This document shows positions 4,410 to 41,997 of a stretch of DNA of 64,000 bases, in pieces. Location: contig OX326959.1 in NCBI GenBank assembly GCA_946800325.1, positions 53,957,276 to 54,021,275 of the forward strand. Direction: 5' to 3'. Positions within the stretch are counted from its first letter, which is position 1. Each line of letters starts with the position of its first letter. A program made the position numbers and the translations under genes. The DNA is from Luzula sylvatica (lineage: Eukaryota; Streptophyta; Magnoliopsida; Poales; Juncaceae). The notes beneath the pieces were generated by a model that had not been told where the DNA came from, made no database searches, and saw only the letters and a program-made list of their open reading frames with translations.

Positions 4410-4480
4410 CTTTACAGAGTGAAAGGGAGAGAGCCGAGATCTTGGTAGTGATCTCTGAAGAAGAGAGGATCGGAAAGAGC

Positions 4481-13116: not shown

Positions 13117-15656
13117 CCATTTATCATTTTTAAGAATATATGACAATTGACCTTTTTGATGGTGTTAGACTTCATTTTTGCATTTTTAAGAAATTTTTGA
13201 AAAAAAATATAAATTTGTGTATGTTAGTCTTCTATTGCGGAGTATTTTTGAGGACAACATGAAAATTAAGAATTTTGATCATGTTAAACTTGAATTTTAT
13301 CATTTTTAAGAAAATATGATAATTGACATTTTTTGAAGGTGTTAGACTTCATTTTTACATTTTTAAGAATTTTTCGAAAAAGAGATATTTGTGTGTGTTA
13401 GTCTTCTATTACGAAGTATTTTTTAGGACAACATGAAAATTAAGCACTTTGCTCATGTTAACTTCAATTTTGACATTTTAAAGAAAATATTATAATTGAC
13501 TTTTTTTGAAGGTAGACTTCATTTTTACATTTTTTATGAATTTTTTGAAAAAATAGATATTTGTGTGTGTTAGTCTTTTATTACGAAGTATTTTGAGGAC
13601 AACAATTAGAAAATAAAGCATTTTGCTAGTGCTACACTTCAATTTTAACATTTTTAAGAAAATATGATAATTGACTTTTTTTGAAGGTGTGTTAGACATC
13701 ATTTTTGCATTTTTAAGAAATATTTGAAAAAATAGAAATTTGTGTGTGTTAGTCTTCTATTACGAAGTATTTTAAGGACAACATGAAAATAAAGAATTTT
13801 GCTCGTGTTACACTTCAATTTTAACATTTTTTAAGAAAAATATGATAATGGACTATTTTTTAATGTGTTAGACTTCACTCTTAGCATTTTTAAGAAATTT
13901 CTGAAAAATAGACATTTGTGTGTGTTAGTCTTCGATTACGAAGTATTTTAAGGTCAACATGGAAATTAAGTATTTTGCTCGTGTTACACTTCAATTTTAC
14001 CATTTTTAAGAAAATATGATAATTTCCCTTTTTGAAGGTGTTAGACTTCATTTTTGCATTTTTATTTTTTTTGTGGAAAAAATAGAAATTTGTTTGTGTT
14101 AGTCTTCTTTTACGGATTATTTTGAGGACAACATGAAAATAAAATATTTTGCTCCTGTTACACTTCGATTTTAACACTTCATTTTTGTATTTTTAAGAAA
14201 TTTTTGAAAAAAAATGAAATTTGTGGGTGTTAGTCTTCTATTACGGAGTATTTTGAGAACAACATGAAAATTAAACATTTTTAAGAAAATATGATAATTG
14301 ACTTTTTTTTTTTGAAGGTGTTAGACTTCACTTTTAACATTTTTATGAAATTTTTGATAAATAAAAATTTGTGTGTGTTAGTCTTCTATTACAAAGTATT
14401 TTGAGAACAACATGAAAATAAATCATTTTGCTCGTGTTACACTACAATTTTTATATGTTTAATAAAATATGATATTTGACTTTTTTTGAAGGAGTTAGAC
14501 TTCATTTTTGCATTTTTAAGAAATTTTGGAAAAAATAGAAATTTGTGTGTTACTCTTCTATTACGAAGTATTTTGAGGACAACATGAAAATAAATCAGTT
14601 TTCTCGTGTTACACTACAATTTTAACATTTTTAAGAAAATATGATTTTGGCTTTTTTTGAAGGCGTTAGAATTCAGTTTTAACATTTTTAAGAAATTTTT
14701 GAAAAAATAAAAATTTGTGTGTGTTAGTCTTCTATTACAATGTATTTTGAGTACAACATGAAAATAAATCATTTTACTCGTGTTACACTTCAATTTTAAT
14801 ATTTTTAAGAAAATATGATAATTGACTTTTTTATAAGGTGTTCGACTTCATTTTTGCATTTTTAAGAATTTTTTTATAAAATGGAAATTTGTTTGTGTTA
14901 GTATTCCATTACAAAGTATATTTAGGACAACATGAAAATTAAGCATTTTGCTCGTGTTACACCTCAATTTTAACATTTTTAAGAAAATATGTTTATTGAC
15001 TTTTTTTGAAGGTGTTACATTTCACTTTTAGCATTTTTAAGAAATTTTTTAAAACATAGAAATTTGTGTCTTTTAGTCTTCTATTACGAAGTATTTTTAG
15101 AATAATATGAAAATAAAGTATTTTTCTCATGTTACCCTTCAATTTTAATATTTTTATGAAAATATGATAATGGATTTTTATTGAAGGTGTTAGACTTCAT
15201 TTTTGCATTTTTAGGAATTTTTTTAAAAAATAGAAATTTGTGTGTGTTAGTATTCCATTACAAAGTATATTTAGGACAACATGAAAATTATGCATTTTAC
15301 TCGTGTTACACTTCAATTTTTTAACATTTTTAGGAAAATATGATAATTGACTTTTTTTGAAGGTGTTATACTTCACTGTTAGCATTTTTAAGAAATTTTT
15401 GAAACATAGAAATTTGTGTGTGGTAGTCTTCTATTACGAAGTATTTTGAGGACAACATGAAAATAAAATATTTTGCTCGTGTTATACTTCAATTTTAACA
15501 TTTTTTTAGAAAATATGATAGTTGACTTTTTTTGAAGGTGTTAGACCCTCATTTTTGCATTTTTAAGATTTTTTTTTAAAATATAGCAATTTGTGTGTGA
15601 TAGTCTTCTATTACGATGTATTTTGAGGACAACATGAAAATTAAGCATTTTGCTCT
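13117..15656 (+). repeat. Satellite array, unit about 174 bp (left part)
   Basis: About 14-15 diverged head-to-tail units. Each unit has three related sub-units of about 57-59 bp: GTGTTAGACTTCATTTTTGC..., GTGTTAGTCTTCTATTACG... and GTGTTACACTTCAATTTTAA.... All three open with GTGTTA and then an ACTTC/TCTTC word. The array is interrupted at 15656 by the Copia element and resumes at 31541 in the same phase. Confidence 0.92.
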
Positions 15657-16609
15657 TGTTGGTTAATTCTAACCTAGAGGGGGGGTAAATTCGGCAATCT
15701 AACTTATACTTAGTTTAGATTTAAACCTAATTTACGGTGCGGAATAAATAATAATTTGGATGATAAAGATGATACCGTACAAACACTTTGACACAAGATG
15801 TTTGTTTACGAAGTTCGGTAGGTGGTTGCTTTGTAGCTTTAACTCACCCTTTACTCGCTTAATTGACCGACTCAATTATTCGCGAGTACCTACGTCTCCG
15901 GGAATGCCTTGTGCCTCTTTTTGGCCTTCGATTGAATTCCAACTCAACTCGATTACAAGGATTTGCCTAGATCGATTTACACGCTTCTATCGATCTATAG
16001 CTTAGGCTCTTTACAATTTGTTGCACTAGCCTATTACACTTTTTCACTAATCGAGCTACAACGTGATCGGTCACGTGAGTGGGATACGATTAGTGGAGAA
16101 TATCGAAAGTAGATCAACGATCTAAAGAGGTTTCTCAAGCTATCAATGGATATAGATAATCACAGCTTAGGGTTTCTCTCTTTTTAGGTTTGAAAGTTTG
16201 AAAATGAGGAGGTGAGAGAGAGAGACCCATGAAGGATTCTATTTATACTCTCTATAGAAATCCTTCAGAAAACTTGCAGTGCGTTCGAACGCATACAGTC
16301 CGTTCAGAACGCACTTGAAGTTTGCACTAGCCGTTTCAAAATAACGTGCAAGTACATCTTGGGTCCGTTCAAACGGACAATGTCCGTTTGTAACGGACTC
16401 AATTATACATAGCATTTTGCGTTCACAGGAACACGAGTCCGTTCAACGCACTGAAAAGTGGGTGAACGGATTCCAGGTTGTCCGTTCGAACGCACATGTG
16501 TGTTCGTTCGAACGCACATATCCCTGTGACATATTTCCGTTCACAGGAAAGATTGTCCGTTCAACGCACTCAGAAGGTGAGTGAACGGATTCTAATTGTC
16601 CGTTCGAAC
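15657..16609 (-). repeat. Outer Copia 3' LTR, part 1 (interrupted)
   Basis: The first 953 bp (plus-strand order) of the 1408-bp LTR. It is nearly identical to the copy at 30133-31540, with one C/T difference near 16330. It is broken at 16609 by the nested element and continues at 24424. The TATA box on the minus strand lies at 16240-16247. Confidence 0.92.
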
Positions 16610-17642
16610 TGTTGGGTATCGGCGTCACTACCGAGCCCCGCGCAGCGGATTGAAGGGCCCGGTCCGACCCGATCCCGAGGACCACGTCGTCGACCCGAGA
16701 GTACGAATCCTAAATCTACGTGCAACTACCTATGAATATAACAATTATAGACATAGATTCATACCACGTGAAATTGGTCACGGTGACGGGTTGAAAGCGT
16801 AGTTGCTGCCTTTTTGTTGCTCCAATCTTCGGTAACACGTGCGTCCCATTCCCGCGCGATTCGACACCTTCGATTGAGCTCCGATTTGTCGTATACAACC
16901 GGATCACATCCGGTTCGTCATCCATCTTGCTCTAGCTTGATCACAATAGAGGATTTCAGATGAAATCCCTCTACCCGTATCCACCTTGAGCCTCGTCTTT
17001 CGGTTACGCGCGATTCCCCTAAAATCGTCGTAAACTTGCTTAAAACCTTCAATCTCTCTAATGGAGTTTTCTCTCTTTTCTTGTCTCACAAGAATTCTCT
17101 TCTCAGATCTGGAATTACCAGAGAGAGAGAAGATCAACAATTGATCTTATATTAACACCATAATTAATGAGGGATTAATGAGTACAAAGAAAAACTGCTA
17201 ATCTGGAATTTGGATCACAGTCCGTCATGACGCACAGAATGGTGCGTCATGATGCACCAGTCACGTTTCCTAGAAACAGCATTTACTATTGGTCCGTCAT
17301 GACTGACCATACAGTCCGTCATGACTGACCATACAGTCCGTCATGACGCACCATATTGTGCGTCATGACTGACCATACTCACAGATTGGTACACAAAATT
17401 CCCTTTGGTCCGTCATGACTGACCAATCTGTCCGTCATGACTGACCATGTTATTTCTGTGTAATCTGACAGATTAACCTATTGGTCCGTCATGACTGACC
17501 AAACAGTCCGTCATGACTGACCATGTTATTTCTGTCAGATTTGCATAATCTTATTATGCATCCAATCGTATCGACGAATGCGTACGTTCGTCTATCCTCA
17601 TGTGTGCAAGCTACTAGTTGATCTATAACTGTATTTCCTTCA
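16610..17642 (-). repeat. Nested Copia 3' LTR
   Basis: It begins TGTTGGGTATCGG on the plus strand and ends CTTCA, so the element-sense LTR is TGAAGG...CCCAACA. It carries about ten palindromes in 17218-17525. The short frames inside are duplicated exactly in the other LTR and are not genes. Confidence 0.92.
17218..17525. promoter_or_regulatory. Array of about ten GTCATGAC-centred palindromes in nested LTR
   Basis: Sites such as GTCCGTCATGACTGAC, GTGCGTCATGATGCAC and GTCCGTCATGACGCAC recur. Most come in pairs or runs with 20-22 bp from start to start (for example about 17291, 17313, 17335 and 17355). In element sense they lie upstream of the likely TATA box. They are candidate sites for a dimeric DNA-binding protein. 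Confidence 0.75.
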
Positions 17643-17653
17643 GTCTCCCACTC
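17643..17653 (-). other. Polypurine tract of nested element
   Basis: On the minus strand GAGTGGGAGAC directly precedes the 3' LTR. This is the usual position of a Copia plus-strand primer. Confidence 0.75.
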
Positions 17654-18779
17654 AGTTTAAGATCCAACTAAAGAATACACCAATGTACATCACATGTACA
17701 CTTATCTTTGAGATTGAAATCAAGCCCGAAATAAGACAGCTCTATGTGTGACCGCGTAGGTTCGTATCAAGCAATGGTAGTAAACTTATTCCTAAGTTTA
17801 CGGGCTCATGAGAGGGATCTAGGAAGAAATCCATCATAGCTTTCCCACGTTGAAAACGAAAAATGATTGTGATCATTTATACCCATCTCGAACGGTGGTG
17901 TTTAGTTCTCTTGTTCGCGATATCCGTCAATCAAAAGGCATGGTAATAGTCATCCTTATGTTTTGATTGACTATACTTAAATTTCGATACCGAATTGAAT
18001 CAACAAATACAATCGATATTAACTATTAATATCATTGACTCTGGCCAGAGATTTCGTTGATTAATTCATCGATAGGCCTAAGGGATATCTCTTTCTCTCG
18101 AAAGGAACAATTTCTATCTTGATGACTCACATCAAATTCCGTGTTTCAGATAATACCCGATTATAATCCCATGACCATCCTGTTACAGATAGTGGAAGAC
18201 TATATCTAAGCATCATGTTACGCACAAAAATTGATCTATGATCATCTCAAGTGTGAAGAACTAAGACCCCATTCGCTACGATTCCATCTACAATGACTAA
18301 ACCATGTCATGGTATCGCACTTTTGGTCAAGTCACAATATGCATAACCTAATGCATATCCATATTCCCGATTCGACAAACTCTTTGTCCTATGATTAGCA
18401 AAACATAATCATCACCTCGGCGAATATGCTAGTGTACACGTTAGTCTATTATCTTATAATAGATATACTTATCACATAAGTATCCTAATCGTGACTAGGG
18501 ACGTTTTTGAAATATAACTTTTGAAATGTGACGGTTTTACTTAACATAATCACGTATTATGTAGACGCTCACACAAGTCATAATTCAAGGTTCGTGTAAT
18601 CATATTACACAACCACACACAAGTTTTCATATAAGTATAAATGCAATTAAAATTTTAAATTTTTTTGAAATGCACTAATATAGAGTAAGTATTGTTTGAT
18701 GCAGCGTTTACACCTATAATCTCTGCTAGGATTATAATCTGCGATGACTATCGGTGTAAGATAACTATACCTCAAATCT
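17654..18779 (-). other. Nested element: 3' non-coding interior
   Basis: About 1.1 kb lies between the pol remnant and the purine tract. No ORF is credible on either strand. Confidence 0.6.
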
Positions 18780-20010
18780 ATTCCTCCTCTAGGTATCTCT
18801 ATACCTATAGTCTTCGCATGACATTCATGCTTAACTAAGAAGAAAGCAGTTTTTGTAAACGGTTCCGCTACGTTCCCGTTAGTGTCAATTTTTGTTAGGT
18901 ATCCAATACCTATTTAAATATAAGTTTGGAGTGGTTATGTTATTTCAGTTTCTTTTGGTTTATGCTATTTCGACCATCGAAATAGATAACCAAAGAATCC
19001 TATTACTTGGGATAATACCAAGTATGATCAACATCTTGATCCATAACGTTTCCATTTCGGCTTCGTAAACCGTATTGAAATCAAATTCCATCGTAGAATT
19101 TTCATTTTAGTTGTTGTGAAACTCTTTCATACAACTTCATTTTTCTTTAAGCAAAATATGTACACATTTCGTAAATGTGTTGCATGTTTGGAGAAATACT
19201 ATCGGTATAACTTTTATCACCGATATATTTTCTTCACCATTTTATATGAGAAATATAATATTAATCCTTTCTAAAAGGATATTGTTTATTAATTTCAATA
19301 CGAATCCGGGTTTTAAATGTTGCATAACTATTATGCATGTGTAAAATATAACCATTATACAACCATATTAAATTGTTTTCGTTCGAACCAACCATATGAA
19401 GTATTCGAAACGAAATATTCTCTGGATTCGATTGATAATTACGACACTTAATATGAACAATATTTAAAGATTAGTACATATCATGGCGTATTTGGAATAT
19501 TCTATTATCGAAATATAAAATATCCATTTTCCTATTTTTCTTTAACTCGATGTCGCACATCGATTCTCAGAAAAATTTCGCCATTCGACATTTGGAAGAA
19601 ATCCGATCTTGGATTTATGTACTGAAAACCATTTTCAGTGTTTTGTCGATGTACATACTTCGATTCAGATCGAGGAATTTTAAATCTATCTTATAGATTT
19701 TTATGCTTATCTCATAAGTTGTCTCGTCTGAATTTTCATAGCGAAACGACAATCGTTTCCTACGAATAATATATCGTTCATATATTTTAATATAAGAAAT
19801 GTATGTGGCTCCCACTAACCTTCACATCTACACAAAGCTTTTCTTTTGCTCTTGATAATATTATAACTAATTATAATTTTATCAGAATAAAATTCCAATT
19901 TCATGAATTATTCTTCAATCCATCAAATGGATCGTTGAAATTTGTATACTTTTCTTGGATTCTTTTGATCGATAAAACTATTAGGTTGTGTCACATACAC
20001 ATCCTTTAAT
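18780..20010 (-). pseudogene. Degenerate Copia pol remnant (RT and RNase H)
   Basis: On the minus strand, broken frames still resemble Copia pol. Near 20006-19920 is KDVYVTQPNSFIDQKNPRKV followed by YKFQRSI and a stop, matching the RT segment before the catalytic region. At 19674-19618 is LDLNRSMYIDKTLKM, the segment after it. At 18886-18782 is NVAEPFTK....KHECHAKTIGIEI, the C-terminal end of Copia RNase H. The gap between the first two blocks is shorter than normal and no YVDD motif is seen, so the RT active site is deleted or destroyed. Frameshifts and stops are frequent. Not functional. Confidence 0.75.
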
Positions 20011-20823
20011 ATTTCCTATCAAGGAATACAGTCTTGTCACCCATTTGTCAAAATTCATAGTCATACTATGTGAAATGACAAATATGATCCGAATGAATCA
20101 AGCGTGATTATTTGTGAAATCTTTTCTTCATGATCATATCATGAATTCTCGAATCTCATAAACATTCTTGCTTTGTAAGTATACATATTCTAATCCACGT
20201 TAGCTTTCACTTTGAAAACTCACTTACATCCTATGGGTCATACCCTATGGAATGTTCAAACCAAGTTCTAAACTTGATGACATGCATGGATTGAATCATG
20301 AATTCCATGGCATTATGCCATGTGAAATTTTTATCCTTTATAGCATCATTTTAGCCCATCGACTCATCATGTATGAGATCGATTCGTTTGTCACATTCTT
20401 TGATAAATTCACAATTTATTGATTCGTGATGTGTCTAAATTGATCTATAAAATCGCTTTGTGACCTTGACTTGGATTCATCAACCTTTGATGAAGTTCCA
20501 ATCATTTCATCAGTTCATATGTCCCATTTCGAGTCTCGAACCTTTCGAGATCGATTCATCTCCCACTAGTTCGTATATATGTACGTGACATTAAGTTCCA
20601 AACTTATGCACATTAAGTCCTCCTCTAAGAAGGTTTCTTTTCGAACTATGAAAATCTTATTTTCATTGGGATATGAAAAATTTAGTATTCTGTAATTTAT
20701 TCAAGAATATTCAATAAATGAACATATCAAATTTGAGATTTAATTTATCCAAAACCAGTTTTCGGATCAAATCTTCAAATCTTACAAAAGATAACATCGG
20801 AAGTTTTTATTAACATTGAACTA

Positions 20824-20858
20824 TTAACGTGCCCGACTTTGGCCTGAAACCACGTTAA
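20824..20858. other. Hairpin 1 with conserved 19-nt core
   Basis: TTAACGTG (20824-20831) and CACGTTAA (20851-20858) pair perfectly around the core CCCGACTTTGGCCTGAAAC. An outer pair, ATCGGAA and TTCCGAT, lies about 30 bases further out. Confidence 0.8.
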
Positions 20859-22174
20859 CCCTCAATTTAATTTCTTTCCGATCCATATCACATATGGGGT
20901 CTTTTGCACCGACTTAGAAGGTATGTGATTAACCTTTGTCTTAAGGGTAAATTTCCAAATCTTATTTGAAAATTTTATTTTGATTTATCATCTATCAAAC
21001 AATGTCCAACAAAGTTTGATTCCACTTTTCGAACACATTGATCTACATTGATGTTCCGAATGAAAATAACTTATGAAACTTTTCCATAAATTTTCAAGAT
21101 GATTATCATACTCATAGCTTAAAATGTTCGTCTCTTCGATCTTATCGAAAGACTTTGATTTTCTCGCTTAGTTGACTTCGTATTTCATTTCGAAATGTTT
21201 TTGAACCATTCAAAATTATGTTTCAAACGCATTAAATAGATATCTTTATATCTACAATAATCGTTGGTAAATATAATGAAATATTTGTAGCCTCCTCTTG
21301 CCTCAGAACTTACTTATTTACCTACATTCAAAATGTTTGGTTTTTGATAAGTCTTTGACCGTTTTTCCAACCTTTGGAATGACACTTTTGTCATCTTGAT
21401 TACTAAACAATTCTTGTACTTGTCATGCGAATCTTATTCGAATGAAACTAGTATTCCATCAAATGGATTGTAGACATGTGTATCGCATACACATAGTCAA
21501 GATGATAATGTCAAAAGAAGCTATTACTATCAACTTTTGGATTAATCCTCCTCGGATTTAACCTTTCTTTTGATATTGGGACAACAACTTGCCCAAATCC
21601 TTGATTGAGACAACGTTTGTCTTAATCACCCTTAGACCCTTGTTTCTTATAAATCCTCAAGCTCCTTTGAAGTTTCGTGTCTTATGTATGTCAACATTTG
21701 ACATACAATATTATTTGACTTCTTCTCAAGTTTGTCAAATTTTTTGCTTTCTCTAATATCGATCATATCGATATGATATTGGTGTTGCTTAAATGATTAT
21801 TCTACATGAATTATGACATTGACAACTAACCGTGCGTACTTATTCTATATGCTTATATGATATGAAATATGTTACTTTTATCAAATCAATAACCCTAATA
21901 TTGATTCGGGATTCTTAATCCAATAACACTTCAAGACCCATATTTCATGATCCTCCCACAAGTGACTTTGGCCGACAAATGGGATCTCACTATTTAGGTA
22001 GAATAAATCCAATCGCATCCAATGCGACTCTTGACCTTTTATAGGATTTCGGTATTGAACCATATCATATATGATTCAAATTCCGTTTGTGCATCCTAAC
22101 TATGCCCCGAACCCCAATCGGATTGGCTTGGACGGTTAAGTCACAACCACATTCACTTATCGTTCAATTGAGCT

Positions 22175-22211
22175 ACAAATGCGCCCGACTTTGGCCTGAA
22201 CCCGCATTTGT
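22175..22211. other. Hairpin 2 with conserved 19-nt core
   Basis: ACAAATGCG (22175-22183) and CGCATTTGT (22203-22211) pair perfectly around CCCGACTTTGGCCTGAACC. Confidence 0.8.
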
Positions 22212-22252
22212 CCCCAATCAACGCTTGCCTCTCATGTTGATACATACAACAA

Positions 22253-22283
22253 TGCACGCCCGACTTTGGCCTGAACCCGTGCA
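22253..22283. other. Hairpin 3 with conserved 19-nt core
   Basis: TGCACG (22253-22258) and CGTGCA (22278-22283) pair around the same core CCCGACTTTGGCCTGAACC. A wider CATGTT / AACATG pair encloses it. Confidence 0.8.
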
Positions 22284-22470
22284 AGGTGTGATGACCAACC
22301 TCGGAGGTTGTGAACATGGAAGGCATTTTTATGACTTAAATATTATGCAGGGATTTATGTGATATAATCTAATTACATCATTGAGCAGGTTTAATTATGA
22401 CGAATGACTTATATGAACATAATTATTAATCATTAGAACCAATATAAAAAATTTCCAGAAAAATTGCACT

Positions 22471-23135
22471 GTCCGTCGTGACTGACACATGGTCCGTCAC
22501 GACGCAAGTATACAGTCCGTCATGACGCATAACATCCTGCGTCATGACTGACCATGCCCATATTAAAATTTTCAGAAAAAATTTTATACTGTCCGTCATG
22601 ACTGACAGTTGGTCCGTCATGACTGACCATGTCCAATATTTCTCCTGATTTGGACTTACTTTGACTTCCGTCATGACGCACAAAACAGTGCGTCACGACG
22701 GACTTCACTTGTCCGTCATAACGCCAGAAGGTGCGTCATGACGGACTATACAAAACAATTTTGTTGTCCAATCCAGGGGCTAATTCGTGTTATGTCCGTC
22801 ACGACTGACCAAATGGTCCGTCGTGACGGAACTAGTTAATACAGTCCGTCATGACGCACAACTTGGTGCGTCATGACTGACCATTATAACTCTCAAAATC
22901 CAACTCTTGGACTGCACGATATATACTGTCCGTCATGACTGACAACCTGTCCGTCATGACGGACTGTACAAAACAATTTTGTACAAACTTCCAGGGACTA
23001 TTTGGGCCACTTCCGTCATGATGCACAACTCTTGTGCGTCATGACGGACAAGTGTAACGCATCAGATCCAACTATTGGATTTCGCGATGAACAGTGTCCG
23101 TCATGACTGACCATCTGGTCCGTCATGACTGACCT
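22471..23135. promoter_or_regulatory. Array of about twenty palindromes in nested element leader
   Basis: The same palindrome family as in the LTR (half-sites GTCCGT, GTGCGT, GTCAGT around CATG) lies between the PBS and the rest of the interior. In element sense this is the transcribed leader. Some sites carry C-to-T or G-to-A changes in the centre (CGTG, CACG). Frames reading SVMTD repeats here are artefacts of the array. Confidence 0.75.
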
Positions 23136-23372
23136 ACTATAAAACTCAATTTTGACAGTAAATTTTTGCTGAAATTGAATCGTTTCGAAAACGATTAATC
23201 ATGAAACATTTTCATGACTACTTCTAGATGCCTTTGATCATCATATGATCAAATTCTAATAAGTTTTCCATGGTCCTAATTTTATGAAACTATATGATTT
23301 ATGTTCTAATTCTACATGATTTTCCGAATAACTTTTATTCGAAATTGATTCGACGATCGAATCGCGACGATC

Positions 23373-23384
23373 GCTCTGATACCA
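23373..23384 (-). other. Primer binding site of nested element
   Basis: On the minus strand TGGTATCAGAGC lies one base from the 5' LTR. It is the standard initiator-Met tRNA complement of plant Copia elements. Confidence 0.88.
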
Positions 23385-23385
23385 C

Positions 23386-24418
23386 TGTTGGGTATCGGCG
23401 TCACTACCGAGCCCCGCGCAGCGGATTGAAGGGCCCGGTCCGACCCGATCCCGAGGACCACGTCGTCGACCCGAGAGTACGAATCCTAAATCTACGTGCA
23501 ACTACCTATGAATATAACAATTATAGACATAGATTCATACCACGTGAAATTGGTCACGGTGACGGGTTGAAAGCGTAGTTGCTGCCTTTTTGTTGCTCCA
23601 ATCTTCGGTAACACGTGCGTCCCATTCCCGCGCGATTCGACACCTTCGATTGAGCTCCGATTTGTCGTATACAACCGGATCACATCCGGTTCGTCATCCA
23701 TCTTGCTCTAGCTTGATCACAATAGAGGATTTCAGATGAAATCCCTCTACCCGTATCCACCTTGAGCCTCGTCTTTCGGTTACGCGCGATTCCCCTAAAA
23801 TCGTCGTAAACTTGCTTAAAACCTTCAATCTCTCTAATGGAGTTTTCTCTCTTTTCTTGTCTCACAAGAATTCTCTTCTCAGATCTGGAATTACCAGAGA
23901 GAGAGAAGATCAACAATTGATCTTATATTAACACCATAATTAATGAGGGATTAATGAGTACAAAGAAAAACTGCTAATCTGGAATTTGGATCACAGTCCG
24001 TCATGACGCACAGAATGGTGCGTCATGATGCACCAGTCACGTTTCCTAGAAACAGCATTTACTATTGGTCCGTCATGACTGACCATACAGTCCGTCATGA
24101 CTGACCATACAGTCCGTCATGACGCACCATATTGTGCGTCATGACTGACCATACTCACAGATTGGTACACAAAATTCCCTTTGGTCCGTCATGACTGACC
24201 AATCTGTCCGTCATGACTGACCATGTTATTTCTGTGTAATCTGACAGATTAACCTATTGGTCCGTCATGACTGACCAAACAGTCCGTCATGACTGACCAT
24301 GTTATTTCTGTCAGATTTGCATAATCTTATTATGCATCCAATCGTATCGACGAATGCGTACGTTCGTCTATCCTCATGTGTGCAAGCTACTAGTTGATCT
24401 ATAACTGTATTTCCTTCA
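23386..24418 (-). repeat. Nested Copia 5' LTR
   Basis: 1033 bp, with no difference from 16610-17642 that I could see. A candidate TATA box on the minus strand lies at 23921-23927. The palindrome array occupies 23993-24300. Confidence 0.92.
23993..24300. promoter_or_regulatory. Palindrome array in nested 5' LTR (U3)
   Basis: The same ten sites as in 17218-17525. On the minus strand they sit about 70-380 bp upstream of the TATA-like TATAAGA, so they occupy the enhancer position. Confidence 0.75.
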
Positions 24419-24423
24419 CGAAC

Positions 24424-24878
24424 GGACATGATTGTTCGTTCGAACGCACACATCCCTGTGACACGTTTGGTTCTAATCAAGCTTTACAGTTTTGATATTT
24501 AGCAAGTCCGTTCTGAACGGACTTTGAGTTCGTTCAGAACGCACTTCCTGCTTGACTGAACTCTTTGTTATTTTGAACATGATTTTACTTGAGTTCTACT
24601 AGGTTTGTACCTATGGTTTATTTGTGGCGTATCCCACTCACGGAAGGCTTCAACATCTTGAGTCTTGATGTATTCCAATGGCCTTCCTTGTGTTCTTCTT
24701 TTCTTGTTTATCTTGAGACTTCATGTCCTGATTCTTGATGTAATCCAATGAACTCCTCCTTCACAAGTCCTCCTTCATCTTCGTATCGTACCTATGTTAT
24801 CCTGCACTTTTTTGGATGTATACATTAGTACTGACAGTGTTTTGAAATAATCAAACTACCAGGAAATTTGAACCAACG
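24424..24878 (-). repeat. Outer Copia 3' LTR, part 2
   Basis: The remaining 455 bp of the LTR, restoring exactly 1408 bp together with 15657-16609. The terminal base next to the purine tract is G where the other copy has A. Confidence 0.9.
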
Positions 24879-25487
24879 AACTCCCCCTTTTGATTAATTT
24901 CAAAACACTGTCGGTTCGGAGAGTTTCATCATTTAGTTGAGAACTTTCCGTACGATCGTTTCTCCCCCATTTTGAAAGAGATCAAAAGGGCCAAGGAGAC
25001 TTCAACAACGGAAGGCTCCCCCTAAATGCGAGCTCCCCCTCAAAGAATGAATTGATGAATGTATGAGCTCGTACATATGATCAAATTCTTTTGTTTTGGA
25101 ATGATGACAATCTTTTCAAAATTTAGCAGATTTTTAAGAAAATATAACAGTTTTTGTGTGTGCGTTCTGAACGGAAAAAGTGATGCGTTCGAACGTACTT
25201 GCCTCTGGACTGACACAAATTTCACAGAATTTATACTGATGAGTGTACGAACACTAAATCAAAATAGGATAATAAAATGAATGCACAAGTTTACTGACAT
25301 AATACCATAATTATTCATCAAACACAATTACTCAATAGACCTAATTGTTCAATCATACCGACACATTTATAAGTTCTCACATACTCTCATGTATACTCAA
25401 TACTTTAGACATAACATAACATAATATAATACGACACAACACACCACAACCAATGTTGATCACACTTCATTTGGCTCGGGTTATGAA
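24879..25487 (-). other. Outer element 3' untranslated region with several purine tracts
   Basis: On the minus strand the purine tract AAAAGGGGGAGTT (24879-24891) abuts the LTR. Further GGGGGAG tracts occur near 24965, 25015 and 25031. Repeated purine tracts upstream of the 3' LTR are a described Sirevirus feature. Two more palindrome-like sites lie at 25150-25200. No gene is seen. Confidence 0.65.
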
Positions 25488-26774
25488 TTAATGGTGCGTT
25501 CCGAACCTGTTCTCAAGATGAACGTAAAGATCGGCAAATTGACGATCCACGTTCTCAAGCATCCGTGCTTCAGATACACGAAACGCATCATGCATTGCTC
25601 TTCCGTGTTGCTCCATGCGCTCATCCATTTCGTCGAGCATTTCCTTCACATAGGCAAACCTCTTATCATCCCGTTCCGTTTGGGCATTTGAGGATTCCCC
25701 CTTCCCCACATTCCTCTTTCGTTTGGGAGCCGGTTCTTCACCGCTTTCATCGGTATTGGTTGGGTCGACGTTGTCCTCTTCCTCATTCAAGGTGTTGCCC
25801 TTCGTCCATCGGGTAGGATCGCGGGGAAGGTGATACGCCACCGCATCCTTTGCGGAGTCAATAATCCATCCTAGGATGCTCGGCGAATACCGATATCCAA
25901 ACCGTCGGAGGTTTGCATCGGATGCGAGGTTGATTGGTGATTTCGGACGAAAATCCCAATCGCTCAGTGGTATCTCAATACCTTGGAGTTCCATCATACG
26001 AGCAATCAATGTTCCGTATGGCAAGGACGCGTTCTTATGACTCATAACACTTTCCATGTGGCTTGTGATGAGAAAGGGCACGTGGATGGGTAATTGATCC
26101 TTGTACCACATGCGATGCAAGAGTATAATATCCCGCTGTTCGAGATTCATCTTAAATTTTTCTGAGGGAGTGAGAATGTTATTACCAATGGCCCAGATAA
26201 ACTGTTCATGGGCGGCCAAGTGAGATGCCCCTTGCCCAGGTTTGATACCCGTGATGGCAGCTTCGAGTCTTGCCTTGCGAGTGTCGTAGATTTTCTCTCC
26301 GCCGTCCCTTAGTCCGAGCAAAACAGTCAAGTTTTTGATAGAGATTTCGACATCTTCACCGAGGATGTATGACGTTACCTTCTCTTCGTCACGGTGGAAT
26401 TCAGCGTTTGCGTAAAATAGTCGCGTGATTACATCATGCGATTTGACGTTTAGGCATGCTAAATTCGCGAATCCCCATGTACGTTCGATTTCCTCGACTT
26501 TGTCGAGGAGGTGATGTATGTTTGGCGGAAACTCGTAGTAGTAGCATGGAGCAATTGGTCTCTTGGATACCCATTCATTGAAGAGGATACCAGCCTCCTG
26601 AGTTCGAAACAGATGCTCGTTGTTTGGGTCAGAGAAGTCATAGTCACTTTGAATGCGTTCTTCAAGAGTAGGCTTCTTTGCCGCTTGCTTCATTCTTCTT
26701 TGAACGTTCGAACTCTCGCCTACTATCTTCTTCCCCTTTGCCTTGGCTTTCGATCTCGAGTTTGAGGCGTCCAT
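25488..26774 (-). CDS. Accessory retrotransposon ORF (putative plant transposon protein)
   Basis: 428 residues from an ATG at 26774 in good context (GCCATGG). The frame stays open upstream to another ATG at 26945, which would add 57 residues. The N-terminus is basic (SRSKAKAKGKKIVG), like a nuclear localisation signal. The middle has the layout of the plant-specific putative plant transposon protein family found in many retroelements (RLFYANAEF, LPYGTLIARMMELQGIEIP). A basic patch PKRKR comes next, and the C-terminus is helical and charged (KEMLDEMDERMEQHG). It lies in the env position, between gag and the 3' LTR, on the element's sense strand. A twelve-site palindrome array lies directly upstream (26970-27500). 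The frame is intact although gag has a stop. Function is unknown; DNA binding or anti-silencing is my guess only. Confidence 0.8.
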   Translation of the reverse strand: MDASNSRSKAKAKGKKIVGESSNVQRRMKQAAKKPTLEERIQSDYDFSDPNNEHLFRTQEAGILFNEWVSKRPIAPCYYYEFPPNIHHLLDKVEEIERTWGFANLACLNVKSHDVITRLFYANAEFHRDEEKVTSYILGEDVEISIKNLTVLLGLRDGGEKIYDTRKARLEAAITGIKPGQGASHLAAHEQFIWAIGNNILTPSEKFKMNLEQRDIILLHRMWYKDQLPIHVPFLITSHMESVMSHKNASLPYGTLIARMMELQGIEIPLSDWDFRPKSPINLASDANLRRFGYRYSPSILGWIIDSAKDAVAYHLPRDPTRWTKGNTLNEEEDNVDPTNTDESGEEPAPKRKRNVGKGESSNAQTERDDKRFAYVKEMLDEMDERMEQHGRAMHDAFRVSEARMLENVDRQFADLYVHLENRFGTHH

Positions 26775-26969
26775 GGCTGTTGTTGAAGGTTTTAGTTTTT
26801 CTGAGAGAGAGAGAGAGAGTTTTGGAAGAGAAACAAGGAGAGAGAATGAAGGGGTGGGGGCTAAGTAACTGAAGAGATCTTGTCCCTTCAGGTCGCGTTG
26901 TAAGGAAAAGGGGCCATCACATCCATTGAATGCAGTCGGTTGCATGTGGACGAAGAGTTATTACGACGA

Positions 26970-27500
26970 GTCCGTTCGAACGCACTTCTCAAGTTCGTTG
27001 GAACGCATTCATGTCTGAGAAAAGGCGCTATTTTGGGTTTTTAAGTTGTATCTAGGAAGTTGTTAAGTCCGTTCGAACGGACTCTTATGTGCGTCAGAAC
27101 GCACACACAACGTAGAAGAGGCGCCAGAATATGAAAAGGCGCGAGGGTAAGGGTTCGAAGTAGATTCGCTGAGTGAGGCATGTGCGTTCGAATGCATTAG
27201 TTGTTCGTTCGAACGCACTGAACACTGTTGACACTAAGAGTCGGTGCCAAAGTATGATCTGGCGCCATAATCCTATAATTCACTTTTCCGTTCGGAATGC
27301 ATTCAGTTGTACGTTCGAACGCACTTAATCCTGGTAGGAAAATTAGATGGCGCCACAGTTTAACTGACTTTGGGTCTCATCGTTCAGTCATCCGTTGAGA
27401 ACGCATTTTAATCCGTTCGACCGGACTTGAGACTGTTAAGAGGGTATTTGGTGACTTCATTTGTCCGTTCCCAACGCACATGTTTTTCGTTCGAACGGAC
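26970..27500. promoter_or_regulatory. Array of six palindrome pairs upstream of accessory ORF
   Basis: Twelve sites of the type GTCCGTTCGAACGGAC, GTGCGTTCGAATGCAT or GTTCGTTCGAACGCAC form six pairs (starting near 26970, 27068, 27182, 27287, 27391 and 27463). The two sites of a pair start 20-23 bp apart, and pairs recur every 70-115 bp. Most intervals between pairs contain a GGCGCC or GGCGC word. The layout matches the U3 region of the LTRs. A CT-rich leader on the minus strand lies between the array and the ATG. Confidence 0.78.
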
Positions 27501-27710
27501 TGGTTCCTGAAGTGTGATCACTGGACTGATATCGTTATTTATTTATTGAGACAAGTGTTCCAATGTACTCCTCTATTAACACATGTGATGTATCTATATA
27601 ATACTCGACCAGTTTGGCTCGAATTCAATTTAGCCCATTTCCTATACTCCCCTTACAAATTTGGTTTTAAGGTGAGGGATACTAAGGAGTATAGTGTTTC
27701 AAATTAGGGC
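27501..27710 (-). other. Gap between gag and the palindrome array
   Basis: About 200 bp with no gene. This is where protease, integrase and reverse transcriptase would start in an autonomous Copia element; none is present. Confidence 0.6.
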
Positions 27711-30065
27711 TTAAGCCCTAGGAGGTCCTATACCAAACGACGTAGAGGGACCCATCGAGTGACGATCTTTACGCATCCATATTGAGTTTGACGTTAATTT
27801 TGGATTGCGAAGATCACAACTTGTTGAGACATGACCCGTTTTGCAACAATAGTTACAAAATGCTACGGTGGGCTTATTTGTGGGTGTGGTACTCTTCACA
27901 AAATAGTCCGAGAGTTGATTCGGATTACTTCTCTTAGGATTTATCGATTTTGGCAATTGATAAAGGTTATTTGATTTCAATTTAGTTTGCTTAAAATTAT
28001 TTTGTTTAAATTGTTTATGTGTGTTGGTGAAATGTTTGGGAGGCCCTTGTTGATATGAAGCTTCGGTGTAGTTTGTCACTTCATAGAAATACCCATTTGG
28101 TCCCCTTTTGAACAAGCAATCGGTTCTTCCCAAATTAGTATGTCTAGATTGTGAATTTTGTGTATAATGATTTTTCTTATAATTATTATTGACACGCTTA
28201 GGTTGATCATTTTTAGCATATTTACCTTTGTTGTAGTCATGGTACATGAAAGCATTTCCATGACTACTTAATTTATTGTTTTCCCATTTAGATTTTTGAT
28301 TTTGAGATATTGAAAAATCGGGTTTATTACCGTTATTTTTCTTATATCCTAAACCGGATTTGTCGTTTGGCTTTTGTCCTATCAATGACAATCTTAAAAC
28401 ATCATCCAATGAAGGAGGACTCAATGCAATATTTGCACAAGCCTTCTTCAGGGATTCATTTTCAACTTTAAGAGTTTGAATTTCGACTTTTAGATGAGAA
28501 ATCTCACCTTTTAGGGTTTGACACTCACACTTTGAAAAACCTTTAAATTCATTTATTTGAGTTTTATATGCCAAAATGGATAGCTCAAGAGAAGCTACCT
28601 TATCCTTGAGAGCTTGTGTTGAGCTCTCAAGTTTACCCTCATTTAGTTGAGAGTTCCCTTCATCTCTAAGAAACTCGTCACATGAGTCGAGTTCTAGTTT
28701 GAATGCGGGAGAAAATTTAGATTTATGTATTGATTCTATGTCACGCAGAGAGTATGTACGTACCTCATGACATTGGTCATGTGTTGAGCAGGTATTAGGA
28801 GTGGATGGTTCCGAGTCCACATCCATGGGTGTGTGATATGTAGTAGTTAGACCTCGTTCAATTCGAATAGATTTGATGGCCGCTTCCACTGCGCTCATTA
28901 GTGGAGGATCGATCCTTACCATGAGTGCACGGTTTGCGGTGTGTCGACTTGACGGACCATCCGGGTCGGATAATGAGCTTGACCCGTCCGTTTCTCCCCA
29001 TCTACAATCGATGTTAGCTTTATATGCCTTTTTCTTATTGATTTCTTTACCTTTGTAGTTTTGACGATTTTCTCGCCCCTTGTCCTCGTATCTTCTTTCG
29101 TATCGGGGCTCTCGCCTTTCCCGATCCTTGTGGTCCTCATCCTTTTTTATCCACCTCGAATTTTCCGGATGGAGAGTCCAGCATGACTCCATCATGTGTC
29201 CAATTTTCTTGCACCAAAAGCAATGGAGCTTTAGCCCCTTTTGTTTCCGATTCTCGTTGAATCGCTTCTCGTCCCTTTGCCACTCTAGGAGTCGCAACGT
29301 GAGATCATCCATTTCATTGTCGTCATTGCTTGCATTCACGGCGGGCAAAGCTACGGTTTTGGAGTGAGGAGAGGGCATGTAGATTCCTTGTTCTTCATCG
29401 AGTTGCTTGAGTCGAATCTCGAAGTTTCGGAATTGACTTACCAATTCTTCAGGCGTGAGGTCTTGTGAAGCTACCGCTGTACCTAAAGCTACACGTAAAG
29501 ATTCCCAACTACGGGGCATAGATTGAAGTAATCTAGCAATAATTCTATCATCAGTAAGAGGTGCATTTTGGGTGGCATATCGAGTTTTTAGTACATTGAT
29601 TTTTGCCCAGATTTTATCAACGGACTCTCCCTCAATCATTCGGAGATTGTTGAATTCTTGTTCAAGTCCGATGATATTAGTTCTTCTCATTTGAGATGTG
29701 CCCTCGTATCTCTCATTGAGCATACGCCACATTTCATATTAGTTATCACAATGATCAACTAGCGATCCAATAGAACTAATTACATTGTTTAGTATTAAGT
29801 TTTGAGCGTAAATGTCATTAGTTCTATCTTCCCTAGTTTGAGAAGGGTAGGTTACATTTCCGTCCTTGTCAACCTCTTGGGCCAAGACAAAGCCTCGTAA
29901 CACTACCTTGTCAAGTCCTTGGAGAGCGAATGCATTTAGCATGCATTTCTTCCAAGAACTCCAATTGGTTCCATCTAATTCACGTGAGTTTGATATATTT
30001 GATTTGGGTACGGTATTTATCGGATTTATCGATGAGTTTTGTACAATAGGATTAATTTCGGTCAT
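27711..30065 (-). pseudogene. gag: Copia gag with one in-frame stop
   Basis: The frame runs from ATG at 30065 to TAA at 27711, 784 codons apart from one internal TAA at 29736-29738 (after DHCDN, before YEMWRML). Seen in order: Copia-type Gag start (LDGTNWSSWKKCMLNAF), core (EQEFNNLRMIEGESV...LLQSMPRSWESL), zinc knuckle CFWCKKIGHMMESC, a basic RE-rich tract, a coiled coil (LKGEISHLKVEIQTLKVENE), and a second knuckle CNYCCKTGHVSTSC. Gag forms the particle and packages RNA. Such a long gag with two knuckles suits Sirevirus relatives. The internal stop fits a single C-to-T change, or could be bypassed in the real source copy. The frame ends without joining pol. Confidence 0.85.
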
Positions 30066-30118
30066 TTGATCGTTAAGTACAAGTTATCCCTAATATTCAA
30101 AGAGATGGTTAGTACCTT

Positions 30119-30130
30119 GCTCTGATACCA
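30119..30130 (-). other. Primer binding site of outer Copia element
   Basis: On the minus strand TGGTATCAGAGC lies two bases from the 5' LTR, matching the initiator-Met tRNA 3' end. Confidence 0.88.
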
Positions 30131-30132
30131 AT

Positions 30133-31540
30133 TGTTGGTTAATTCTAACCTAGAGGGGGGGTAAATTCGGCAATCTAACTTATACTTAGTTTAGATTTAA
30201 ACCTAATTTACGGTGCGGAATAAATAATAATTTGGATGATAAAGATGATACCGTACAAACACTTTGACACAAGATGTTTGTTTACGAAGTTCGGTAGGTG
30301 GTTGCTTTGTAGCTTTAACTCACCCTTTACTCGCTTAATTGACCGACTCAATTATTCGCGAGTACCTACGTCTCCGGGAATGCCTTGTGCCTCTTTTTGG
30401 CCTTCGATTGAATTCCAACTCAACTCGATTACAAGGATTTGCCTAGATCGATTTACACGCTTCTATCGATCTATAGCTTAGGCTCTTTACAATTTGTTGC
30501 ACTAGCCTATTACACTTTTTCACTAATCGAGCTACAACGTGATCGGTCACGTGAGTGGGATACGATTAGTGGAGAATATCGAAAGTAGATCAACGATCTA
30601 AAGAGGTTTCTCAAGCTATCAATGGATATAGATAATCACAGCTTAGGGTTTCTCTCTTTTTAGGTTTGAAAGTTTGAAAATGAGGAGGTGAGAGAGAGAG
30701 ACCCATGAAGGATTCTATTTATACTCTCTATAGAAATCCTTCAGAAAACTTGCAGTGCGTTCGAACGCATACAGTCCGTTCAGAACGCACTTGAAGTTTG
30801 CACCAGCCGTTTCAAAATAACGTGCAAGTACATCTTGGGTCCGTTCAAACGGACAATGTCCGTTTGTAACGGACTCAATTATACATAGCATTTTGCGTTC
30901 ACAGGAACACGAGTCCGTTCAACGCACTGAAAAGTGGGTGAACGGATTCCAGGTTGTCCGTTCGAACGCACATGTGTGTTCGTTCGAACGCACATATCCC
31001 TGTGACATATTTCCGTTCACAGGAAAGATTGTCCGTTCAACGCACTCAGAAGGTGAGTGAACGGATTCTAATTGTCCGTTCGAACGGACATGATTGTTCG
31101 TTCGAACGCACACATCCCTGTGACACGTTTGGTTCTAATCAAGCTTTACAGTTTTGATATTTAGCAAGTCCGTTCTGAACGGACTTTGAGTTCGTTCAGA
31201 ACGCACTTCCTGCTTGACTGAACTCTTTGTTATTTTGAACATGATTTTACTTGAGTTCTACTAGGTTTGTACCTATGGTTTATTTGTGGCGTATCCCACT
31301 CACGGAAGGCTTCAACATCTTGAGTCTTGATGTATTCCAATGGCCTTCCTTGTGTTCTTCTTTTCTTGTTTATCTTGAGACTTCATGTCCTGATTCTTGA
31401 TGTAATCCAATGAACTCCTCCTTCACAAGTCCTCCTTCATCTTCGTATCGTACCTATGTTATCCTGCACTTTTCTGGATGTATACATTAGTACTGACAGT
31501 GTTTTGAAATAATCAAACTACCAGGAAATTTGAACCAACA
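30133..31540 (-). repeat. Outer Copia 5' LTR (intact, 1408 bp)
   Basis: It runs from TGTTGGTTAATTC to TTTGAACCAACA on the plus strand. On the minus strand TATAAATA is at 30716-30723. Palindromes occupy 30755-31205, which is upstream of the TATA box in element sense. Confidence 0.93.
30755..31205. promoter_or_regulatory. Palindrome array in outer LTR U3
   Basis: About a dozen sites are built from GTCCGTT/GTGCGTT half-sites around TCGA, for example GTCCGTTCGAACGGAC (from 31077) and GTCCGTTCTGAACGGAC (near 31167). Several are paired at 19-23 bp. They begin about 30 bp upstream of the TATA box. The interrupted LTR has the same array at 16280-16609 and 24419-24545. Confidence 0.75.
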
Positions 31541-33722
31541 GCTCTTGTTACACATCAGTTTTAACATTTTAGAGAAAATATGATAATTGACTTATTTTGA
31601 AGGTGTTAAGACTTCATTTTTGCATTTTAAAAAAAAAATTGAAAAAATAAAAATTTGTATGTGTTAGTCTTCCATTACAAAGCATATTTAGGACAACATG
31701 AAAATTAAGCACTATACACGTGTTACACTTCAATTTTAATATTTTTAAGAAAAATATGATAATTGACTTTTTTTTTTAAGATGTTGTACTTCAGTTTTAG
31801 CACTTTTAAGAAATTTTTTGAAAAAAATGGAAATTTGTGTGTGTTAGTCTTCCATTACAGAGTATATTTAGGACAACATGAAAATTAAGCATTTTGCTCG
31901 TGTTACACTTCAATTTTAACATTTTTAAGAAAATATTATTATTGACTTTTGTTGAAGGAGTTACACTTCACTTTTAGCATTTATAAGAATTTTTTGAAAA
32001 CAGGAAAATTGTGTGTTTTAGTCTTCTATTACGAAGTATTTTGAGGAGAACATGAAAATGTATTTTGCTCGTGTTACACTTCAATTTTAACATTTTTCAG
32101 AAAATATGATAATTGACTTTTTTTTAAGGTGTGACTTCATTTTTGCATTTTTATGAATTTTTTGAAAAAATTAAAATTTGTGTGTATTAGTCATCTATTA
32201 CAAATTATTTTTAGGACAAATTCACTTCTATTTTAACATTATTAAGAAAATTTAATAATTGGCTTTCTTTTAAGGTGTTAGGCTTCATTTTTGCATTTTT
32301 AAGAAATTTTTGAAAAAAATATAAATTTGTGTGTTAGTCTTTTATTACCAAGTATTTTTAGGACATCACGAAAATTATGCATTTTTCTCTTGTTACACTT
32401 CAATTTTAATATTTTTAATAAAATATGATAATTGACTTTTTTGAAGCAGCAAGAATTCACTTTTTACATTTTTGAAATTTTTTTGAAAAAATAGATATGT
32501 GTATGTGTTAGACTTCTGTTATGGAGTATTTTGAGAACAACATGAAAATAAGCATTTTCATCATGTTACACTTCAATTTTAATATTTTTTAGAAAATATG
32601 ATAATTGACTTTTTTTTATGGTGTTAAACTTCACTTTTAACATTTTTAAGAAATTTTGGAAAAAAATAGAAATTTGTGTGTGTTAGTCTTCTATTACCAT
32701 GTATTTTGAGGGTAACATACATCATTTTACTCGTGTTATACTTCAATTTAAATATTTTTGAGAAAATATGATAATTGACTTTTTTTTGTAGGTGTGAGAT
32801 TTTAATTTTAAGATTTTTTTGAAAAAATAGAAATTTGTGTGTTAGTCTTCTATTACGAAGAATTTTTAGGACAACATGAAAATTAAGAATTTTGCTCGTG
32901 TTACACTTCTATTTTAACATTTTTAAGAAAATATGATAATTGATTTTTTTTAGGGTGTTAGACTTCACTTTTGGAATTTTTAACAAAAAATTTACAAAAT
33001 AGAAATTTGTGTGTGTTAGTCTTGCATTACAAAGTATTTTCAGGACAACATCAAAATAAAGCATTTCGCTCGTGTTACACTTCACTTTTAACATTTTTAA
33101 TAAAATATGACAATTGACTTCTTTTTAATGTATTATAATTCATTTTTGCAATTTTAAGAAATTTTTGAAAAAATAGAAATGTGTGTGTTAGTCTTCTAGT
33201 ACGGAGTATTTTGAGGACAACATGAAAATTTAGCATTTTGCTCATGTTACAGACTTCACTTTTAGCATTTTTAAGAAATTTTTAAAAAAATAGAAGTGTG
33301 TGTGTATGTTAGTCTTCTATTACAAAGTATTTTTAGGACAACATGAAAATTAAGCATTTTGCTCGTGTTACACTTCAATTTTATCATTTTTAAGAAAATA
33401 TGATAATTGACTTTGTTTTGAAGGCGTTAGACTTTATTTTTGCATTTTTAAGAAATTTTTGAAAAAAAATGAATTTTTGTGTGTTAGTCTTCTATTAAAG
33501 AGTATTTTGAGGACACAACATGAAAATAAGCATTTTGCTCATGTTACACTTCAATTTTAACATTTTTAAGAAAATATGAGAATTGTCTATTTTTTCAAGG
33601 TGTTAGACTTCACTTTTGACATTTTTAAGAATTTTTGGAAAAAATAGCAATTTGTGTGTGTTAGTATCTATTACGATGTATTTTGAGGACAACATGAAAA
33701 TAAACCATTTTGCTCCTGTTAC
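31541..33722 (+). repeat. Satellite array, unit about 174 bp (middle part)
   Basis: This is a continuation of the 13117-15656 array with the same three-part unit, about 12 copies with more divergence and some partial units. It is interrupted at 33722 by a hAT-type element. Confidence 0.92.
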
Positions 33723-34592: not shown

Positions 34593-35173
34593 GCTGTTAC
34601 ACATCAGTTTTAACATTTTTCAGAAAATATGATAATTGACTTTTTTTTTCATGGTGTTAAACTTTATTTTCGCATTTTTAAATTTTTTTTGAAAAAATGG
34701 AAATTTGTGTGTGTTAGTCTTCAATTACAAAGTATATTTAGGACACCTTGAAAATTAAGCATTTTGCTCGTGTTACACTTCAATTTTAACATTTTTAAGA
34801 AAATATGATAATTGACTTTTCTTTTATGTATGTGTTATACATCACTTTTAGCATATTTAAGAAATTTCGGAAAACATAGAAATTTGTGCGTGTTAGTCTT
34901 CTATTACTAAGTATTTTGAGTACAACATGAAAATAAAGTATTTTGCACGTGTTACACTTCAATTTTAATATTTTTTAAAAAATATGATAATTAACTTTTT
35001 TTTTTAAGGTGTTAGACTTCATATTTGCATTTTTAAGAAATTTTTGAAAAATAGAAATTTATCTGTGTTTATATTCTATTACAGAGTATTTTGAGGACAA
35101 CATGAAAATTAACCTTTTTACTCATTTTACACTTCAATTTTTACATTTTTAAGAAAATCTCGTAATTGACTTT
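34593..35173 (+). repeat. Satellite array, unit about 174 bp (right part)
   Basis: About three further units follow. The array fades at about 35173 into unrelated DNA. Confidence 0.88.
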
Positions 35174-41976: not shown

Positions 41977-41979
41977 AAA

Positions 41980-41997
41980 TGGCGCCGCTGCCGGGGA
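41980..41997 (+). other. Gypsy primer binding site
   Basis: TGGCGCCGCTGCCGGGGA starts three bases after the 5' LTR. Athila-type elements use a near-identical site, usually assigned to an Asp tRNA. Confidence 0.8.

Follow-up and report, generated by a model that had tools for sequence, protein, structure and literature searches.

The closest described counterparts of the sequences analyzed here are the "repeated motif" (RM) boxes of Sireviruses, which Bousios et al. described in 2010, leaving their function open (PMC2829016). That paper reports RM boxes as Sirevirus-specific and absent from classic Ty1/copia elements; they lie upstream of env in 9 of 9 Sireviruses that carry both boxes and env, and the attachment site is AT/TG in 20 of 21 published Sirevirus elements. 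Palindromes in the long terminal repeats (LTRs) of maize Sireviruses were later reported to be small-RNA hotspots (Bousios et al. 2016, as summarized in parts of PMC5311732 and PMC10760457). We analyzed a 64,000-nt stretch of the Luzula sylvatica genome (assembly GCA_946800325.1, contig OX326959.1, positions 53,957,276–54,021,275; hereafter the window), in which a Sirevirus-type LTR retrotransposon (outer element, 15657–31540) is interrupted by a second LTR retrotransposon (inner element, 16610–24418). Both elements lie on the minus strand and carry arrays of short palindromes, and the conserved unit of these arrays looks like a pair of palindromes, that is, a double palindrome of about 38 bp, rather than a single palindrome.

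The arrays comprise 58 distinct sites in 29 pairs (28 outer and 30 inner sites), all described here on the minus strand. The outer LTR array (30755–31206) contains 14 palindromes in 7 pairs, two members of which are weak, and ends 32 bp upstream of the TATA box. The outer internal array (26970–27500) contains 12 palindromes in 6 pairs and ends 196 bp ahead of the start codon taken for an env-like open reading frame (ORF); a seventh internal pair (25160–25198) is located between this ORF and the 3' LTR. The inner LTR array (23996–24297, with its copy at 17220–17521 in the 3' LTR) has 5 pairs (10 palindromes) and precedes TATAAG at 23927, which is one of three TATA-like strings and lies 69 bp from the nearest box edge. 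The inner leader array (22471–23133) contains 20 palindromes in 10 pairs. The original prediction of two nested elements whose palindromes precede a TATA-like box in U3 and recur within each element was borne out. Its hand counts are approximately right: each inner LTR has 10 sites, the inner leader 20, the outer 5' LTR 12–14, and the outer interior 14.

With up to 4 mismatches allowed over both arms, a scan recorded 15 hits in the outer 5' LTR (shuffled mean 2.86), 25 in the outer interior (9.32), 10 in the inner 5' LTR (0.50), and 20 in the inner interior (1.25), of which 14, 14, 10, and 20, respectively, were kept. The 12 dropped hits, 1 from the outer LTR and 11 from the interior of the outer element, were isolated and had 4 mismatches, and their numbers are close to those expected by chance (2.9 and 9.3); four weak sites were retained for their position (30893 and 31011 in the outer LTR with 4 mismatches; 27286 and 22711 with 3). 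The same scan found 33 outer-type hits and 1 inner-type hit in the rest of the window, none of them with 2 or fewer mismatches. Palindromes with 6-mer arms, a total mismatch of at most 1, and centres of 0–8 bp occurred at 75 places in the element, where the Markov mean was 1.1 (maximum 4 in 60 shuffles), and at none in the remaining 48.1 kb; the figure of 75 counts alternative placements that overlap, as well as both copies of the LTRs. Of 55 GC-rich dyads counted in the window without reference to any motif, 48 fell in the elements, and 44 of these lay within the 2.8 kb of the arrays, with a Markov mean for the element of 1.1 (maximum 4). The density of the palindromes is far above chance. 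In a gypsy-type element of the same window, which served as a control, the ten top 8-mers were simple-sequence or low-count ones and included no palindromic family.

The sites had been described as 16-bp palindromes with a family-specific 4-bp centre, and five 16-mers had been named. The sites are in fact imperfect palindromes, and only 3 are exact. Two of the named 16-mers occur: GTCCGT-TCGA-ACGGAC twice (27067 and 31074) and GTCCGT-CATG-ACGGAC once (22949); the other three are absent from the sequence. The family-specific centre stands in that it is mostly TCGA in the outer family and CATG in the inner family, with 4 bp in all 30 distinct inner sites, but its length is not fixed in the outer family, where 4 bases lie between the 6-mer arms at 16 of 28 sites, 5 at 8 sites, and 3 at 4 sites. 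A rigid 16-mer with a fixed 4-bp centre is not supported as the recognised unit. The two families share the half-site T-N-CGT (51 of 56 outer and 41 of 60 inner half-sites, pooled), usually preceded by G, and differ in the bases that follow (TT outer versus CA inner). T2 and C4 are present in all 56 outer half-sites, T6 in all 60 inner half-sites, and T2 and C7 in 59 of 60; position 3 is variable in both families. Since the pooled half-sites share T-N-CGT and differ afterwards, they would fit the earlier suggestion of one class of binding protein with two specificities.

The pair centres are 19.5–23 bp apart, about two helical turns, in 29 of 29 pairs, so that the earlier statement that "many" sites are paired understated the arrangement. 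This figure is partly circular because two outer-LTR members with 4 mismatches were kept for standing beside a strong site; among the 54 sites with at most 2 mismatches, 50 have an equally strict mate at 19.5–23 bp. The facing arms of the inner pairs fall into two matched kinds in all 15 pairs, ACTGAC with GTCCGT (8 pairs) and a GC-type with a TGCGT-type arm (7 pairs), and changes in the inner centres are mirrored in the mate at 22471/22492 and 22794/22816. In the stem formed between the two boxes of an inner pair, 9 cells were changed on both sides, compared with 3.9 after shuffling (0 of 500 shuffles as high), whereas within single boxes 1 cell was doubly changed, compared with 1.4 (406 of 500 as high). 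Seven of the nine double changes derive from the two pair kinds; the other two are separate and affect the centres of 22471/22492 and 22794/22816. None of 20,000 shuffles paired inner mates as well as the observed combination, and shuffling within pair kinds only gave p values of 0.003 for energy, 0.005 for Watson-Crick pairs, and 0.04 when G-U pairs were included. At 21 places a pair departs from the consensus of its kind; 14 of these departures disrupt a stem pair, 5 give a Watson-Crick pair, and 2 give a G-U pair. For adjacent boxes from different pairs, pairing does not exceed that of shuffled boxes (74–100% of shuffles were as good). The two arms of one inner box vary independently (0.808 versus 0.822 shuffled), and a hairpin formed by a single palindrome was rejected for the inner element because covariation is absent between the arms of a box (396 of 500 shuffles were as high).

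The gaps between successive pairs (n = 24 from the four arrays, with the pair at 25160 left out) were phased with R 0.69 at a period of 10.0; R was 0.58 at 10.5 (phase 0.2 bp) and 0.55 at 9.5, and no signal was seen at periods of 8–9 or 11.5–14. With 16 de-duplicated gaps, the best R was 0.67 (Monte Carlo p 0.001), with the reservations that the best period is closer to 10 than to 10.5 and that gaps shared by duplication may remain. Helical phasing of the gaps points to an arrangement at the level of DNA. The boxes are similar against diverged flanks: the mean pairwise identities of the inner boxes were 0.93 and 0.89 in the LTR and 0.82 and 0.85 in the leader, with flanks at 0.24–0.44, and those of the outer arms were 0.70–0.96, with flanks at 0.24–0.43.

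We put it at slightly better than an even chance that the arrays are cis-regulatory DNA made of composite operators of about 38 bp that are bound by a multimeric DNA-binding factor. Each operator would combine two imperfect palindromes spaced by about two helical turns from centre to centre, with the second approximating a reverse-complement copy of the first, and would presumably have been maintained by selection. The units precede the TATA box in U3, and the outer element has further units ahead of its env-like ORF; given this placement, one multimeric factor (a dimer of dimers) could activate both the promoter of the genomic RNA and an internal env promoter. The half-sites are related (GTNCGT, after which the outer family has TT(C) and the inner family CA), which makes related factors of different specificity plausible; the shared GTNCGT is suggestive, and its chance overlap is a few per cent by a hand estimate. 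That a covarying 38-bp double palindrome is common to unrelated copia lineages and is read by element-tuned DNA-binding proteins, perhaps including the Sirevirus env-like product as a nuclear factor, so as to form a private operator code for each family, is an extension that we consider improbable. Treating the pair as the unit gives binding probes of the right size, with contrasts between single and double and between in-phase and out-of-phase sites.

Several observations weigh against operators bound by protein. Covariation between mates is what a hairpin would be expected to produce, and it is carried by the leader (p 0.0001), the inner LTR alone giving p 0.10 with 5 pairs. The inner leader array is positioned beyond the LTR promoter, in the presumed transcribed leader, and no ORF or promoter was seen after it. 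In the outer element, mates in the LTR gave p 0.05 (sense) and 0.01 (antisense) and those in the interior 0.93 and 0.79, i.e., no covariation, while the arms of one outer box covary slightly (0.827 versus 0.801, p 0.048). The inner LTR array is not CpG-rich (observed/expected 0.82–0.92). As the boxes were picked by motif match, part of the contrast in identity between boxes and flanks is built in, although the density is unaffected; the counts do not represent independent events, since the two inner pair kinds may descend from duplications; and the sample is one copy of each family.

The main rival, a reading that we consider possible but unlikely, assigns the arrays to RNA, with each pair forming a stem-loop of about 38 nt in the transcript (in the leader and, at the 3' end of the genomic RNA, in U3) that is used by the element or, as has been suggested for the palindromes of maize Sireviruses, cut by the host to small RNAs. 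All 15 inner pairs fold into one long stem with a short loop, the leader array and the outer LTR array reach z scores of -20 (20 shuffles) and -14 (100 shuffles), respectively, and the inner pairs carry two compensatory double changes in mid-stem as well as two G-U changes there. The better pairing of true mates in the inner element and the outer LTR, not seen with non-mates, points in the same direction, as do the small-RNA hotspots at maize Sirevirus palindromes in the excerpts cited (PMC5311732, PMC10760457). However, any palindrome array folds well, sense and antisense strands do not differ clearly, and helical phasing of the gaps is not expected of RNA; moreover, of the 21 departures noted above 14 break the stem and 7 keep or gain pairing, the outer interior pairs do not covary, and all outer pairs together gave a flat result in an alignment test for paired structure (286 of 500 shuffles as high). 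The helical phasing, the placement at promoters, and the independent inner arms favour protein binding, and mate covariation and folding favour hairpins. We prefer binding by a multimer because a pair read as one symmetric unit would explain both kinds of evidence.

Two other explanations are less probable than RNA hairpins. The arrays could be functionless products of mutation, arising by local duplication and by correction of quasi-palindromes through template switching, a mechanism which we presume would yield compensatory changes without selection. A duplication of about 118 bp in the outer LTR repeats two pairs, and the leader and LTR arrays align at about 68–74% over longer matches. Nevertheless, we doubt this origin: the flanks are near chance level while the boxes have not diverged, the arrays are confined to regulatory stretches in both elements, and the gypsy-type control element has nothing comparable among its ten top 8-mers. 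Anti-silencing encoded by the element, in which the outer env-like product would bind its own boxes and keep the element unmethylated by analogy with the VANC proteins of VANDAL transposons, appears still more doubtful, indeed very improbable. The boxes lie on either side of the env-like ORF, which has a basic KRKR stretch (by eye) and a C-terminal stretch modelled as a single helix (362–427, block pLDDT 43–65), and VANC targets are likewise family-specific motif arrays in non-coding DNA according to excerpts of PMC5735166. Against this, the structure model of the env-like protein is too poor (mean pLDDT 35.8) to serve as evidence of a fold, no such ORF exists in the inner element, 4 of 13 published Sireviruses carry LTR boxes although they lack env (PMC2829016, in excerpt), and similarity to the same domain, PF20167, is also reported in a sunflower Athila element of another lineage (PMC11728184, in excerpt).

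The outer element is bounded by the target-site duplication (TSD) GCTCT (15652–15656 and 31541–31545). Its 5' LTR (30133–31540, 1408 bp) has the TATA box TATAAATA at 30723, the best among four TATA-like strings, and is followed by a primer-binding site (PBS) at 30119–30130 that matches the complement of TGGTATCAGAGC. The 3' LTR is split by the inner insertion into an upstream piece (24419–24878, 3 scan hits) and a downstream piece (15657–16609, 11 scan hits, i.e., 10 array sites and 1 isolated weak one). The two LTR copies differ at only three positions, 16328, 24812, and the terminal base 24878. Polypurine tracts (PPTs) occupy 24881–25040, with AGGGGGAG at 24881, 25016, and 25033 and GGGGGAG at 24962. 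The gag region (27711–30083; Retrotran_gag_2, PF14223, E 2.8e-14) contains an in-frame stop at 29739–29741. The env-like accessory ORF (25488–26774) encodes 428 aa from the chosen ATG, an earlier in-frame ATG existing upstream, and its residues 115–266 match Transposase_32 (PF20167; E 6.8e-11, 42.8 bits, just below the cut-off of 45). These two are the only ORFs of at least 130 aa in the outer interior (24878–30132), where no pol ORF was found. With gag and env-like ORFs, no pol ORF, and LTRs with three differences, the outer element reads as a young, non-autonomous Sirevirus derivative.

The inner element is flanked by the TSD CGAAC and has a 5' LTR of 1033 bp (23386–24418) identical to the 3' LTR (16610–17642), a PBS at 23373–23384 with the leader array downstream of it, and a PPT junction of the classic copia type (AGTGGGAG with AC/TG). 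From an ORF list with a threshold of at least 80 aa, none of at least 100 aa overlaps its interior, the longest there being 96 aa; a Pfam scan of 10 stop-free pieces gave no informative match, and integrase- and RNase H-like peptides were recognised by eye only. Because identical LTRs enclose a degraded coding region, the sequence suggests a recently mobilised, non-autonomous element. It was inserted in the centre of an outer-family palindrome (16605–16609 and 24419–24423), breaking one box of the outer 3' LTR that is the same as the palindrome at 31074; plant LTR elements show a weak preference for palindromes (PMC6911290, in excerpt). Short matches to the inner LTR at 63619–63650 (94%) and 63959–64000 (84%), at the end of the window, perhaps belong to a related LTR.

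Protein relatives were few. P0001 is related to the env-like ORF (64% identity over 57%), and P0004, which matches a degraded 87-aa ORF of the inner element (94% identical over 89%), is an occurrence of this ORF in another record. P0002 and P0003 are relatives of gag filed under a Rhabdochlamydiaceae metagenome assembly and are most likely plant DNA contamination. The viral search confirmed no locus encoding a relative of the env-like ORF, and the prokaryote and viral searches confirmed none encoding a relative of gag. In viral contigs, the two 16-mer patterns matched 11 and 6 stretches, one place each, and no paired pattern was found. In prokaryote genomes, the inner-type paired pattern had one match, an isolated inverted repeat in a 50-base excerpt of a Nostoc contig, which was taken as chance.

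Satellite monomers of about 174–176 bp (13169–15705 and 31522–35173) flank the nested pair, the outer element lying inside the satellite array. The gypsy-type element (40625–49803), which we take to be Athila-like, has near-identical end repeats 8.4 kb apart and long gag and pol ORFs split by a single stop at 45009–45011. Cytochrome P450 gene pieces are present at 2490–4538 and a Myb/SANT-like ORF at 61543–62154.

Among other systems, the heat-shock element (TTCnnGAA), bZIP/as-1 (TGACG), MSA/MYB (AACGG), and CHR (TTYGAA) sites were set aside, as each would fit just one family or part of the sites. The arrays resemble VANC/VANDAL targets, as far as the excerpts of PMC5735166 describe them, in that family-specific short motifs are amplified in non-coding DNA in one orientation, but VANDALs are DNA transposons, the published motifs are non-palindromic, and the binding protein is known. 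Sites of NAC factors share the converging T-N-CGT half-site (PMC4081100, PMC4106437, both in excerpt), which is kept in the outer proportion given above and in only 41 of 60 inner half-sites; their spacers are 7 or 8 bp (PMC4081100) or 5–10 bp (PMC4106437), compared with 3–5 bp here. The NAC palindrome CGT-N5..10-ACG was rejected on this spacing for most sites: every inner site and 16 of 28 outer sites have a 4-bp spacer, 4 outer sites have one of 3 bp, and only 8 outer sites (5 bp) reach the lower limit.

In regard to Sireviruses, the outer array is the known RM, judging from the excerpts of PMC2829016, from which the published comparisons below are also taken. Many boxes lie in the upper LTR half shortly before TATA, which matches 13 published Sirevirus motifs, and others precede the env-like gene, as in the 9 with env. 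Sirevirus boxes start 200–400 bp into the LTR, and those of the outer element lie 334–785 bp in, with TATA 32 bp further on; 12 of its 14 internal boxes precede the env-like ORF. The AGGGGGAG octamer at 24881 (with 2 further bp) stands 10 bp before the 3' LTR, the copies at 25016 and 25033 being further linker copies, and an inverted repeat surrounds this terminal PPT (ACAGTGTTTTGAAATTAATCAAA before it and TTTGATTATTTCAAAACACTGT in the LTR, by eye). The attachment site at the 3' LTR is TT/CG instead of AT/TG; because the outer 5' LTR begins with TG, the CG is a substitution in this copy, although the dinucleotide is still TT, not AT. GTCCG or CGGAC also occurs in 5 of the 13 published motifs (OPIE-2, PREM-2, Usier, HOPIE, and Osr9). 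The core order of the outer boxes is turned relative to the Sirevirus one (CCG...CGG, within GTCCG...CGGAC, and not CGG-CCG), except across the facing arms of the pair 30839/30858, which read CGGAC-N3-GTCCG. The maize consensus CACCGGACNNNGTCCGGTG differs as well, but the same pair contains CGGAC-AAT-GTCCG; the arrays resemble the maize palindromes in being clustered in the cis region of the LTR and having strong predicted secondary structure (PMC5311732, PMC10760457, in excerpt).

The suggested link to Sireviruses, which for the outer element was already in print (PMC2829016), does not extend to the inner element at its PPT junction. The inner element contains no copy of AGGGGGAG, and its junction is AGTGGGAG with AC/TG, two further copies of AGTGGGAG lying more than 2 kb from the junction; the change of G3 to T is among the commonest in classic copia PPTs (PMC2829016). 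By these PPT criteria the inner element would be a classic copia element, not a Sirevirus, a contrast that rests on the junction because its pol is too degraded for phylogeny. Whereas classic Ty1/copia elements are reported to lack boxes, the inner element has 10 LTR boxes upstream of TATA and 30 distinct boxes in total, the most of the two elements. The excerpted literature on Sirevirus RM boxes (PMC2829016) contains no description of strict pairing and phasing, and both the pair as a conserved unit and boxes in an element without a Sirevirus junction look less familiar there. Their presence beside a classic copia junction would make it less certain that such boxes mark Sireviruses only.

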